Part shown: one piece after another, positions 19,276 to 22,724 of the stretch
How positions within the stretch are numbered: the stretch's first letter is position 1
Layout: each line of letters starts with the position of its first letter
Assembly: GCF_022808715.1 (NCBI RefSeq)
Contig: NZ_JAKZKX010000021.1
Location: 1 to 64,000, forward strand
Direction: 5' to 3'
Origin: Fundidesulfovibrio agrisoli
GTDB lineage: Bacteria > Desulfobacterota > Desulfovibrionia > Desulfovibrionales > Desulfovibrionaceae
DNA: 64,000 nt
Notes under the pieces: generated by a model
The model's database searches: none
The model's input: the letters and a program-made list of their open reading frames with translations, nothing else
What the model was told of the DNA's origin: nothing
Translations under genes and position numbers: made by a program

Positions 19276-19304
19276 TTGACAGCGGGGCGGAGGGTCCGTA
19301 TCGT
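19276..19304 (+). promoter_or_regulatory. Promoter of the leuA leader
   Basis: TTGACA at 19276-19281, 17-bp spacer, TATCGT at 19299-19304. The expected start site falls within a few bases of the ATG at 19311, leaving no room for a ribosome-binding site on the transcript. Confidence 0.6.
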
Positions 19305-19310
19305 GAGCCC

Positions 19311-19391
19311 ATGTTCACGACGCTGAGCCTCCGCCCCCGCTTCCTCGCGGCCCCCGCCGCCCTCTCGCTACCGCCCCTGGCGGTCTGTTAA
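19311..19391 (+). CDS. Candidate leucine-rich leader peptide of leuA
   Basis: A 26-residue frame with six leucines (CTG, CTC, CTC, CTC, CTA, CTG), including the CTA codon that is rare in such GC-rich DNA. It starts six bases after the proposed -10 element and ends at TAA 19389. Inside its end lies ACCGCC-CCT-GGCGGT (19370-19384), and ten bases on a T6 run (19395-19400); further on is a GCCGC-CAG-GCGGC hairpin (19431-19443) whose arms could pair with the first. This is the outline of a leucine attenuator, but the hairpin-to-T-run distance is long for an intrinsic terminator. No ribosome site is visible. Confidence 0.4.
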   Translation: MFTTLSLRPRFLAAPAALSLPPLAVC

Positions 19392-19479
19392 TCGTTTTTT
19401 CTTCCCTTATTCCGTTTTCGTCCCGTTCCAGCCGCCAGGCGGCATTGTTCCATGTGATCGACCGTGCAGGAGGTCCGCC

Positions 19480-19545
19480 ATGATCGACCGACGCCGACTA
19501 TCAGGCCCGAACCGCAGCCGTCCCCGTGCCGCTTCGCGCCGATAA
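19480..19545 (+). CDS. Short upstream frame before leuA
   Basis: A 21-residue arginine-rich frame (eight Arg) preceded by a near-perfect AGGAGGT seven bases before ATG 19480, and ending 23 bp before the leuA start. The leuA ATG itself has only a weak CCGGAG. Such a well-initiated frame could help feed ribosomes to leuA or act in control. It may equally be a chance match; nothing in the peptide suggests leucine sensing. Confidence 0.3.
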   Translation: MIDRRRLSGPNRSRPRAASRR

Positions 19546-19568
19546 CGCAGAAAACCCCGGAGTCATCC

Positions 19569-21269
19569 ATGCAGACCGCCCGTATGATCGAGAAATATCG
19601 CCCCTTCCCCGCCGTCGCCCTCAAGGGCCGCACCTGGCCCGACAAGACCATCGCCAAGGCCCCCGCGTGGCTCTCCACGGACCTGCGCGACGGCAACCAG
19701 GCCCTTTTCGACCCCTTGGACACCGCCTCCAAGCTCAAGCTGTTCAAGCTGCTGGTGGACATCGGCTTCAAGGAGATCGAGGTGGCCTTCCCCTCGGCCT
19801 CGCAGACCGACTTCGATTTCGTGCGCACCCTCATCGAGGGCGGCCACATCCCCCGCGACGTGACCATCTCCGTGCTGACCCAGGCCCGCGAGCACCTGAT
19901 CCGGCGCACCGTGGAGTCGCTCGAGGGCGCGCGCTCGGCCATCGTGCACATTTACGTGTCCACGGCCCCGGTGTTCCGCGAGGTGGTCTTCCAGAAGACG
20001 CCCGAGGAGGTCCGCCGCATGGCCGTGGAGGCCGTGCTCCTGACCCGCGAGCTCACCGCCGCCCAGCCCGGCACGGCCTGGACCCTGGAGTTCACCCCCG
20101 AGAACTTCACCGGCACCGAGCTGGAGTTCGCCCGCGACGTCTGCGACGACGTCACCGCCGCCTGGGGCGCCACCCCCGAGGACAAGGTGATCGTGAACCT
20201 GCCCGCCACCCTGGAGCTGGCCACGCCCAACGTCTACGCCGACCAGATCGAGTGGATGCACCGCAACCTGGCCCGGCGCGACAGCGTTGTCATCTCGGTG
20301 CACCCGCACAACGACCGCGGCTGCGCGGTGGCCGCCGCCGAGCTGGCCCAGCTGGCCGGGGCCGAGCGCGTGGAGGGCTGCCTGTTCGGCAACGGTGAGC
20401 GCACCGGCAACGCCGACCTGGTGACCCTGGCGCTCAACCTGCACACCCAGGGCATCGAGCCCGGGCTGGACTTCCGGCGCATGGCCGAGGTGACCGCCGC
20501 CATGGAGGAGCTCACCCGCCTGCCCGTGCACCCGCGCCACCCCTACGCGGGCGAGCTGGTGTTCACGGCCTTCTCCGGCTCCCACCAGGACGCCATCAAG
20601 AAGGGCTTCGCCGCGCGCACGCCCGAGTCGCTCTGGAACGTGCCCTACCTGCCCATCGACCCGGCGGACCTGGGGCGCGGCTACGAGGCCATCGTGCGGG
20701 TCAACGGCCAGTCCGGCAAGGGCGGCGTGGCCTACGTGATGGAGGCCACCTACGGGCTGGTGATGCCGCGCAGGCTCCAGGTGGAGTTCGCGGCCGCCGT
20801 GCAGCACCACGCCGACACCCACGGCGGCGAGATACCGCCCGAGACGCTCTGGAAGCTCTTCGCCCGCGAATACCTGGAGAAGACCAAGCCCATCCTCTAC
20901 GCCGGGCACCAGCTGGTGGACGTGCCAGGCCGCCAGGGCATCCGCCTGGAGGTCGGCGTCGGCAGGCGCACCGTCTGCGCCATGGGCGAGGGCAACGGCC
21001 CGCTGGACGCGGCCGTGCACGCCCTGGGGCTGCCGCTGCGCATCCACTCCTACGAGGAGCGGGCCATCGGGGTGGGAGCGGACGCCAGAGCCGCCTCCTT
21101 CGTGGAGGTCAGCCTGGACGGCGTGACCGGAAGCACATTCGGCGTGGGCCTGAGCCCCAACATCGTCACCTCGGCCATCCTTGCGGTGCTCTGCGGAGCC
21201 AACAGGCTCCTGGCGCGCCTGCCAAAGGACAAGCGCCAGGACGTGCTGGACATGCTGCTGGGGGAATAA
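19569..21269 (+). CDS. leuA: 2-isopropylmalate synthase
   Basis: 566-residue enzyme joining acetyl-CoA and 2-ketoisovalerate, the first step of leucine synthesis. The HMGL-type TIM barrel is at residues about 30-310, with STDLRDGNQALF (metal-binding Asp), VHPHNDRGCAVAAAEL (metal-binding histidines) and EGCLFGNGERTGNADL. The C-terminal part (about 430-560) is the LeuA dimer/regulatory domain for leucine feedback. Length and the KYRPFPAVALKGRTWPDKTI start place it in the longer yeast/actinobacterial-type LeuA branch. ATG 19569 gives the conserved N terminus. No other leu gene adjoins it; a possible attenuator lies upstream. Confidence 0.95.
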   Translation: MQTARMIEKYRPFPAVALKGRTWPDKTIAKAPAWLSTDLRDGNQALFDPLDTASKLKLFKLLVDIGFKEIEVAFPSASQTDFDFVRTLIEGGHIPRDVTISVLTQAREHLIRRTVESLEGARSAIVHIYVSTAPVFREVVFQKTPEEVRRMAVEAVLLTRELTAAQPGTAWTLEFTPENFTGTELEFARDVCDDVTAAWGATPEDKVIVNLPATLELATPNVYADQIEWMHRNLARRDSVVISVHPHNDRGCAVAAAELAQLAGAERVEGCLFGNGERTGNADLVTLALNLHTQGIEPGLDFRRMAEVTAAMEELTRLPVHPRHPYAGELVFTAFSGSHQDAIKKGFAARTPESLWNVPYLPIDPADLGRGYEAIVRVNGQSGKGGVAYVMEATYGLVMPRRLQVEFAAAVQHHADTHGGEIPPETLWKLFAREYLEKTKPILYAGHQLVDVPGRQGIRLEVGVGRRTVCAMGEGNGPLDAAVHALGLPLRIHSYEERAIGVGADARAASFVEVSLDGVTGSTFGVGLSPNIVTSAILAVLCGANRLLARLPKDKRQDVLDMLLGE

Positions 21270-21697: not shown

Positions 21698-22495
21698 TTA
21701 TTCCCCCAGCCCGGCCAGGGCGTCCTCCAAGTCTCCGCCGTCGTGCACGATCTTGCCCAGGGCCTGCAGCAGGCGGGTGGGGTCCTTGTGCTGGAAGATG
21801 TTGCGGCCCACCGACAGGCCGGAACCGCCCGCCTGGATCGAATCCGCAACCATGCGCAGGAAGTCCCTGGTGGTGGGGGTCTTGGGCCCGCCGGCGATCA
21901 GCACGGGCACCCGCGCTCCGGCCACCACGCGGGCGAAGCTCTCGGGGTCCCCGGTGTAGGGCACCTTGACCATATCCGCGCCGAGCTCCATGCCCACGCG
22001 GGCGCAGTGGGCCACCACCTCGGGGTCGAACTCGTTCTTGATCTTGGGGCCGCGCCCGTAGACCATGGCCAGCACCGGGATGCCCCAGCGCGCGGCCTCG
22101 CGGCTGATGCGCCCCATGTCCGCCAGCATGTCCCGCTCGGACTCGTCGCCCAGGTTCAGGTGCACGCTCACGGCGTCCGCGCCCAACTGCACGGCCTCCT
22201 CCACTTCGCAGACCAGGGTCTTGGCCCCGGGGAAGGGCGAGAGCGAGGTGGAGGCCGAAAGATGCACGATCAGGCCGATGTCGCGGCCGCGCGCCCTGTG
22301 CCCGCAGGGCACCACGCCCTTGTGCATGAGCACGGCGTTGGCCCCGCCCTCCACGATCTTGGTCACGGTGTCGCGCATGTCGATGATGCCGTCGATGGGG
22401 CCCACGGTGACGCCGTGGTCCAGGGGCACGATGATGGCCCGGCCGGTGTCGCGGTTGATGATGCGTTCGAGGCGGATGGTTTTGCCGATGTGCAT
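21698..22495 (-). CDS. 2-amino-3,7-dideoxy-D-threo-hept-6-ulosonate synthase (class I aldolase family)
   Basis: 265-residue DeoC/LacD-type class I aldolase. [17 protein letters not shown], the Schiff-base lysine candidate in [10 protein letters not shown], and PVLIAGGPK with [11 protein letters not shown] follow the archaeal FBA-I/ADTH-synthase pattern. In methanogens and Desulfovibrio this enzyme makes the precursor of 3-dehydroquinate, replacing DAHP synthase. A class I fructose-bisphosphate aldolase is the alternative. The Tyr-rich leader and terminator just upstream favour the aromatic role. AGGAG precedes ATG 22495. The second-step gene (3-dehydroquinate synthase II) is not adjacent. Confidence 0.87.
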
Positions 22496-22540
22496 GGTGT
22501 TTGCTCCTGGCCTTTCCCGGCCCATGACGCCCGCGCCACG

Positions 22541-22572
22541 AAAAAGGGCCGCGAACGTCGTGTTCGCGGCCC
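22541..22572 (-). terminator. Attenuator terminator before the aromatic pathway gene
   Basis: On the minus strand a perfect 11-bp GC-rich stem (22572-22562 with 22556-22546), 5-base loop, followed at once by TTTTT (22545-22541). It lies between the Tyr-rich leader and the aldolase-family gene, 46 bases before its start. Its 5' arm also contains CCGCGAAC, complementary to GTTCGCGG in the leader, the alternative antiterminator pairing. Confidence 0.85.
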
Positions 22573-22600
22573 TGTGGAAAGAGCGCTGCTTGGGTTGATC

Positions 22601-22687
22601 CTACTGGAGTACGCTCCGCCACGCCCCGCGAACGCGGACCCCGTAGGAATAATAATACTGGCTGCCGTGGGCGTGGGTATTGCGCAT
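22601..22687 (-). CDS. Tyrosine-rich leader peptide
   Basis: 28-residue frame beginning with ATG at 22687 and ending TAG at 22601. Codons 11-15 read Tyr-Tyr-Tyr-Ser-Tyr (TAT TAT TAT TCC TAC) and a Trp codon follows at 23. Just after the Tyr codons is CCGCG-TT-CGCGG (22637-22626), a small hairpin; its GTTCGCGG half can instead pair with the 5' arm of the downstream terminator. Stalling on Tyr codons would free that half and block termination. No ribosome site is seen; the ATG is seven bases past the proposed -10. Ends 29 bases before the terminator. Confidence 0.8.
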   Translation of the reverse strand: MRNTHAHGSQYYYSYGVRVRGAWRSVLQ

Positions 22688-22694
22688 GGATGAC

Positions 22695-22724
22695 GGTTTA
22701 GTCATGGTGGGGCGCAACTGTCAA
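22695..22724 (-). promoter_or_regulatory. Promoter of the tyrosine leader
   Basis: On the minus strand TTGACA (22724-22719), 18-bp spacer, TAAACC (22700-22695). The -35 is perfect and the -10 weak. The start site would fall at or next to the leader ATG at 22687. Confidence 0.55.

Follow-up and report, generated by a model that had tools for sequence, protein, structure and literature searches.

Transcription attenuation by a stalled ribosome is a classical mechanism, known from the pheA, pheST and trp leaders of E. coli, in which codons for the regulated amino acid are clustered. E. coli itself divides AroF, AroG and AroH by means of allostery and repressors, and the aroR leader of C. glutamicum was reportedly described by Neshat et al. 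in 2014. In the available part of PMC11802643, this leader, situated before aroF, is given as Phe-Tyr-Phe and as responding to Phe and not to Tyr, so that the codon content of a leader need not equal its signal; the accessible parts of PMC11525245 and PMC4046766 also cover it. The uORFC-13-1 motif of Acholeplasma combines a predicted aromatic uORF with a terminator, likewise before aroF (PMC8632094, in the part available). For the aroA'-aroB'-pheA-aroF-tyrA-trp operon of D. vulgaris, the accessible portion of PMC1173090 refers to a putative attenuator in the web list of Merino, and within that portion a leader peptide, sensor codons, a scaffold or a Tyr-only isozyme leader is not mentioned. 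Finally, the trpL transcript of S. meliloti is reported to begin with the leader ATG, which makes it a leaderless precedent (PMC7298713, in the part available).

Here, we analysed the region upstream of an ADHS (2-amino-3,7-dideoxyheptulosonate synthase, aroA') gene on the minus strand of a 64-kb stretch of DNA (hereafter, the window; Table 1), and we propose, with a probability of about 0.88, that it is a ribosome-stalling transcription attenuator, with charged tRNA-Tyr as its signal and one ADHS isozyme as its target. Like the E. coli leaders, as portrayed in the accessible text of PMC11802643, it combines a clustered-codon leader frame with mutually exclusive antiterminator and terminator structures; unlike them, it is Tyr-only, probably leaderless, directed at an ADHS gene, and matches no Rfam leader family at gathering scores. 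With C. glutamicum aroR it would have in common that an aromatic-codon leader attenuates the first committed step of the aromatic pathway, whereas aroR, in the parts of its literature available, is Phe-Tyr-Phe, belongs to a DAHP synthase rather than ADHS, and comes from a different phylum. Similarly, the uORFC-13-1 motif has in common with it a predicted aromatic uORF and a terminator ahead of an entry enzyme, but, in the available description, its U run codes for at least one Phe, a ribosome-binding site is present, and both the enzyme and the lineage differ. The D. vulgaris operon, as given in the accessible portion of its source, resembles the second ADHS locus of the window's genome (L005, with a mixed leader), which also begins aroA', aroB', pheA. 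The likeness to S. meliloti trpL lies in a transcript starting at the ATG of the leader frame (PMC7298713, in part), although trpL controls trpE(G) by Trp and its 5′ end is reported there, whereas we infer that of the window leader from spacing. The original prediction knew of no description for this enzyme, and in the literature searched (subscription-only papers being outside its scope), which includes a paper on metal-reducing delta-proteobacteria, we likewise found none of a Tyr-only ADHS leader, of any Tyr-only attenuator, or of this scaffold. To the extent of these searches, the window leader would be the first attenuator that works by ribosome stalling on Tyr codons alone. Its mechanism belongs to a known class, whereas the Tyr-only form, the codon-based partition of paralogues, the scaffold common to the family and the probable lack of a 5′ leader before the leader frame appear to be new within that literature.

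Table 1. Features of the leader and of the downstream gene (window coordinates).
Feature	Position	Strand	Basis or remark
-35 box TTGACA	22719..22724	-	Read from sequence; spacing to ATG conserved in relatives
-10 region CTAAACC	22695..22701	-	TAAACC with 18-nt spacer, or CTAAAC with 17 nt and upstream TGA
Leader peptide frame, 28 codons and stop	22601..22687	-	ATG 22687, stop TAG 22603-22601
Sensor codons TAT TAT TAT TCC TAC (Tyr-Tyr-Tyr-Ser-Tyr, codons 11-15)	22643..22657	-	Conserved in orthologues
Predicted anti-antiterminator hairpin (CCUACGGGGU...ACUCCAGUAGG)	22599..22648	-	Predicted from the minimum-energy fold
Region 2 (GTTCGCGG), antiterminator 5′ strand	22626..22633	-	8/8 complementary to terminator 5′ arm
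Region 3 (CCGCGAAC), common to antiterminator and terminator	22562..22569	-	In terminator 5′ arm
Intrinsic terminator stem-loop, 12 pairs, 5-nt loop	22545..22573	-	Folding; closing A-T pair counted
Terminator T tract	22541..22545	-	Sequence
ADHS gene (2-amino-3,7-dideoxyheptulosonate synthase, aroA')	21698..22495	-	TIGR01949, PF01791

Direct reading of the minus strand bore out the 28-residue frame with a Tyr-Tyr-Tyr-Ser-Tyr run that the original prediction had named, and its translation is MRNTHAHGSQYYYSYGVRVRGAWRSVLQ. The predicted terminator stem and its TTTTT are present as well, but the stem has 12 pairs and not 11, and 28 bases, not 29, separate the leader stop from the GGGCCGCGAAC terminator arm. 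As for the claimed TTGACA promoter, the -35 box is there, while a strict sigma-70 scan of the leader region reports no promoter, because the -10 region (TAAACC, or CTAAAC after TGA) is a poor match to the consensus; this -10 region is conserved within the genus. An in-frame ATG further upstream (22705) was rejected as the leader start, since it falls inside the promoter, between the -35 and -10 elements, and a stop codon separates the two ATGs in the relative L008, which leaves the ATG at 22687 as the likely start. The leader region folds with a z-score of -3.8, and none of 200 shuffles folds equally well.

The downstream gene was correctly recognized by the original prediction: its product scores 379.8 bits against the NCBIfam equivalog TIGR01949 (cut-off 299.45) and also matches the DeoC/LacD aldolase family PF01791. 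The enzyme, 2-amino-3,7-dideoxy-D-threo-hept-6-ulosonate synthase, is the archaeal-type shikimate entry enzyme, the first in aromatic amino acid synthesis. Its start ATG (22495) is preceded by a Shine-Dalgarno-like AGGAG (22508-22504), the mechanical frame opening at 22525. The leader and ADHS gene look like a monocistronic unit, because the gene-like frames on both sides, that is, the next large one downstream (19464-21269) and a short one upstream of the leader, run on the opposite strand. In the same genome, the second ADHS gene (L005) is followed by aroB' (3-dehydroquinate synthase II) and pheA, and this aro operon has its own mixed Phe/Tyr/Trp leader, MQTPNFAAGFFNWFYFWFSRASGSGRGAR, with a terminator upstream. 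A third, distant ADHS-like paralogue (L006 903-1808, G000:C13) scores below the TIGR01949 cut-off, and an aromatic leader was not found in its upstream region.

The occurrence of such leaders was surveyed in related genomes, of which 56 of 59 contain ADHS-like genes. Loci were taken from matches of at least 54% identity, from a family search (21 further loci, a part of its ADHS matches) and from 25 named loci, and the removal of duplicates and weak matches left 131 ADHS genes (89, 20 and 22 by source, one family-search duplicate and the named loci L059-L061 being left out), ahead of each of which up to 420 nt were scanned. An aromatic-codon leader with a terminator precedes 95 of the 131 genes (94 by the automatic filter, L011 by hand). 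The 36 genes without it comprise 18 distant named loci (archaea, other phyla and some MAGs), where no leader was found in any, and 18 genes of relatives, which include second copies in tandem, additional paralogues and L030, counted as none since the terminator behind its leader-like frame fails the filter.

Within the genus, the conservation called for by the original prediction is evident: all six members with an orthologue, the window's genome and five others (L008-L012), have a Tyr cluster and a terminator, the cluster being YYYSY in five and YYCY in one (L011), while a sixth relative, the incomplete genome G006, gave a mixed-leader copy only. Tyr-only leaders of other genera read YYYY, YYYYY or YYYGY, Phe-only leaders include FFFFFFF, FFFSFFFF and FFFFFSFSSF, and the majority of ADHS leaders are mixed (e.g. 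FYFWYWF). These class labels are mechanical, so that L014 (FFYCYSY) is counted as mixed, and L095 and L113, from single-ADHS genomes and with some Tyr, as Phe. The 23 Tyr-only leaders of L007 and its relatives use TAT 71 times and TAC 27 times, a preference reversed in the ADHS genes of the same loci (TAT 3, TAC 46).

According to the original prediction, GTTCGCGG (region 2) could pair with CCGCGAAC (region 3) as an antiterminator, and this is borne out by a complementarity of 8/8 in the window leader and by covariation of the homologous pairing over 57 leaders. For the window leader by itself, the duplex energy of the leader 3′ part with the terminator arm gave p = 0.37, and an unbroken 8-bp run p = 0.015, both against mononucleotide shuffles; among 95 leaders, p ≤ 0.05 was reached by 69 in the energy test and by 26 in the run-length test. 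Because the energy test is undiscriminating for the window leader, the analysis was extended to pairing counts, arm swaps and covariation. In the 91 leaders with a GGCCGC-like terminator (L045, L101, L114 and L130 are unclassed), region 2, taken in each leader as the 8-mer with the best pairing, matches the terminator 5′ arm over 8/8 bases in 73; for the 3′ arm of the terminator itself, 8/8 pairing is seen in 20. As region 2 was picked in this way and the alignment was cut there, raw pairing counts lean to pairing, and this lean was measured with shuffle and swap controls. When arms were swapped among leaders (2000 swaps), 8/8 pairing was found in 43.2 leaders on average and 53 at most, as against the 73 of 91 observed, and dinucleotide-shuffled leaders under the same best-site search gave a mean of 3.3 of 90 and a maximum of 9 (100 rounds). 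The position of region 2 is also regular, starting 6-12 nt past the last aromatic codon in 84 of the 91 leaders and lying 19-25 nt ahead of the leader stop in 77. Four relatives from the genus are below 8/8, namely L008, L009 and L010 (7/8) and L012 (6/8).

For covariation, 57 rows were hand-picked for diversity from the 91 leaders. The antiterminator pair between columns 10 and 91 occurs as UA (31), CG (20), AU (3) and UG (3) and is intact in all 57 rows, whereas the terminator pair on the same base (columns 91-106) is broken in 45, which indicates that the shared base follows region 2 and not the terminator. The covariation score of the antiterminator is 0.291 compared to 0.202 in shuffles, and 0 of 500 shuffles reach the observed value; antiterminator pairs changed on both sides (3 of 10) were equalled by 189 of 500 shuffles and are thus not in excess. 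The compensatory changes are clear outside the genus. Region 2:3 pairing, with these changes, supports an antiterminator and a terminator that are mutually exclusive.

Folding was examined both with and without a stalled ribosome. A stall simulated on each of the four Tyr codons released region 2, which paired with the terminator 5′ arm before the 3′ arm was made, through 8/8 bases or, for the last codon (15), through all 7 free bases; in the naked partial RNA of the window leader, region 2:3 pairing was absent. In the minimum-energy fold of the window leader, the predicted anti-antiterminator hairpin of Table 1 would hold region 2 as long as no ribosome is stalled. In the complete RNA of the window, the terminator remains the minimum even after the stall, so that switching has to depend on which part of the RNA is made first, the factor that kinetic models of attenuation assume to be decisive. 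The naked partial RNA already forms the antiterminator in 9 of the 11 leaders folded (the exceptions are L007 and L009), and the anti-antiterminator is thus no general prediction.

The spacing of promoter and leader frame is also conserved. The first T of the -35 box lies 35-38 nt from the ATG in 80 of 94 leaders, with another spacing in eight and no -35 in range in six, and the best of four possible -10 hexamers ends 5-9 nt ahead of the ATG in 76 of 88 leaders, a count that has no shuffle control. Among the relatives of the window leader, the -35/-10/ATG spacing is kept despite the poor -10. This geometry suggests that transcription probably starts at the leader ATG or no more than a few nt from it, in which case the leader peptide would probably be translated from a leaderless mRNA, a start at or beside the ATG leaving no space for a Shine-Dalgarno sequence. 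SD-like 4-mers were found in 14 of 88 leaders in the final 20 nt ahead of the ATG, a region which also holds the -10.

The codon content of the leaders is distributed unevenly over ADHS paralogues. In a quick tree of 112 ADHS proteins (excluding the 18 distant named loci and L068, which is Phe-only and has a stop codon in the aligned stretch), the window ADHS belongs to a clade of 23 (SH-aLRT 97) with 22 Tyr-only leaders and one FFYCYSY; two Tyr-only leaders, L101 and L130, are found outside that clade. In the retrieved downstream flank, which for most loci spans about 1500 nt, aroB' was present at 57 of 62 loci with a mixed leader, 0 of 24 with a Tyr-only leader, 2 of 8 with a Phe-only leader (both from single-ADHS genomes), and 5 of 18 with no leader. 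In the mixed leaders, Y/(Y+F) is 0.17-0.40 in genomes with a Tyr-only paralogue (n = 8) and 0.33-0.83 in those with a Phe-only one (n = 6; p = 0.005), the statistic using related genomes, with six of the eight Tyr cases belonging to one genus. Judged by sequence, the putative Tyr-only and Phe-only leaders are located on extra ADHS isozymes, and the mixed Phe/Tyr/Trp leaders on the ADHS heading aroB' operons.

The window leader belongs to a large, probably leaderless leader family, which the original prediction had not foreseen. R1, a covariance model built from the leader scaffold, was run on 150 genomes sampled from the order, including some that had contributed to its training set, and has matches in 142; where positions were compared, these matches are mostly ADHS leaders. 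In a sample of the phylum, it matches 16 of 198 genomes, 9 of the 16 being outside the family. The window's own genome gave 30 matches at E ≤ 1, the best two of which are both of its ADHS leaders; upon inspection of the third-best (C32, L162), a leader of this kind was not found. We inspected 36 R1 matches, chosen mainly away from known ADHS genes; their annotation relies on fragments matching named families below full-length cut-offs for L149, L152, L154, L156, L159 and L163, and on reading by eye for the remaining loci. Phe-codon leaders with the scaffold are found ahead of SSS-type symporters (L149-L151, L173-L180), another of which has an F/Y leader (L152), while Trp-codon leaders precede TRAP substrate-binding proteins (L153, L156, L157, L161), trpE-like genes (L155, L159, L169, L171) and a TrpB-like gene (L154), and at L181 the leader ahead of a trpE-like frame is mixed. 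Since Phe, Trp, Leu and mixed leaders precede matching genes, the scaffold appears constant while the sensor codons change with the gene, and the codons predict phenylalanine transport for the SSS symporters and tryptophan uptake for the TRAP systems. We consider it quite likely that an order-wide modular attenuator exists, in which one scaffold and a leaderless promoter-ATG module carry exchangeable codons dividing the duplicated shikimate entry enzymes into Tyr-only, Phe-only and mixed forms, comparably to the division of AroF, AroG and AroH in E. coli; predicted Phe and Trp transporters would bear the same switch.

The observed anatomy, conservation and antiterminator covariation lead us to infer how the leader would be translated, where its leaderless start would lie, and how termination would respond to tyrosine. 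Transcription would start at approximately the leader ATG, and the leader frame would be read from a leaderless mRNA. With ample Tyr-tRNA, the ribosome would clear the Tyr codons, region 2 would be kept in the leader hairpin, and the terminator would fold, stopping transcription ahead of the ADHS gene. With scarce Tyr-tRNA, the ribosome would stall at the Tyr codons and open the leader hairpin, whereupon region 2 would pair with the terminator 5′ arm before the 3′ arm exists and the polymerase would read through. The originally proposed attenuation layout is supported by the orthologues, the compensatory changes and the stall folding. Across the family, a single RNA scaffold would bear exchangeable sensor codons, with Tyr-only or Phe-only sets on extra ADHS isozymes, mixed sets on aroB' operons, and Phe or Trp sets on transporters and trp genes. 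This would provide a testable rule for the order, by which carbon entry into aromatic synthesis is set through codon-specific attenuation of isozymes, as well as a natural set for studying sensor-codon swaps on a constant RNA switch and attenuation from leaderless mRNAs.

It is conceivable, though unlikely, that the attenuator works but responds to a different aromatic amino acid, to aromatic starvation in general or to the overall speed of translation, and not specifically to tyrosine. The behaviour of C. glutamicum aroR, which answers to Phe despite its Tyr codon (PMC11802643, in the part available), would fit such an explanation, and so would the one or two Phe codons in the leaders of the genus relatives L008, L009, L010 and L012; however, the window leader has no Phe codon, its sole Trp codon sits past region 2, the enzyme clade has leaders classed as Tyr-only in 22 of 23 cases, and the mixed leader is Tyr-poorer in those genomes. 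Considerably less probable is an action in trans of the leader peptide or of the terminated leader RNA, besides or instead of control in cis, by analogy with rhizobial peTrpL and rnTrpL. Such an action is brought to mind by the probable leaderless start, since the trpL RNA of S. meliloti is arranged in this way and gives rise to trans-acting products (PMC7298713, in the part available). The leader peptides do end recurrently in RACG, RASG or RARG, yet these residues are encoded where the leader RNA pairs with the terminator, so that a function of the peptide is not needed to explain them.

We give equally little credence to a constitutive terminator next to a chance short frame, with regulation either lacking or exerted by a DNA-binding repressor at the promoter. 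Intrinsic terminators are indeed common, shuffles of the leader stretch containing 1.1 on average, but a run with at least four Tyr in five codons occurs in just one of the 543 short frames of the 64-kb window (10-60 aa, distinct stop codons, both strands), the Tyr leader itself, and no Tyr-cluster frame arose when the 184-nt leader region was dinucleotide-shuffled 20000 times. Moreover, the codon cluster, scaffold, spacing and covariation are widespread, as the R1 matches (training sources among them) attest, and the terminator closes no obvious upstream transcript, the neighbouring gene-like frame being on the other strand. A ligand-binding RNA, be it a riboswitch or a T-box, sensing tyrosine or tRNA-Tyr directly with an incidental frame, would likewise account for leader structure and a terminator upstream of a gene of aromatic synthesis, but we regard it as highly improbable: Rfam searches of the window at gathering scores, and of seven leader loci at E ≤ 1 with the amino-acid leader families and T-box included, gave no relevant match, and it is the codon cluster that varies with the regulated gene and not the RNA scaffold. 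A ribosome-stalling attenuator that senses charged tRNA-Tyr is thus the reading we prefer.

Among the other R1 matches inspected, L166, L182 and L184 are ADHS leaders. Two matches are doubtful: L168 has an aromatic-rich frame ahead of a dehydrogenase-like gene, and L183 lies ahead of a trpE-like frame, where a leader candidate was not found on inspection. L158, L160, L164, L167 and L170 were judged to be false matches. A Phe-rich leader precedes a PaaK-like (phenylacetate-CoA ligase-like) gene at L163 (G018). Outside the family, the match at L165 (G311) is located ahead of what appears by eye to be an exporter-like protein and includes a short frame with two Trp codons, and L172 (G335) has a Leu-rich frame, an SD-like sequence and a GGCCGC terminator ahead of a leuA-like gene; the latter suggests that use of the scaffold may not be confined to aromatic amino acids. 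Within the window, upstream of the leuA-like frame at 19464, a TTGACA on the plus strand (19276) is followed at a distance of 35 nt by an ATG (19311) that opens a short Leu-containing frame, MFTTLSLRPRFLAAPAALSLPPLAVC, read by eye; the stretch 19276-19391 is possibly a leaderless Leu attenuator of matching geometry.
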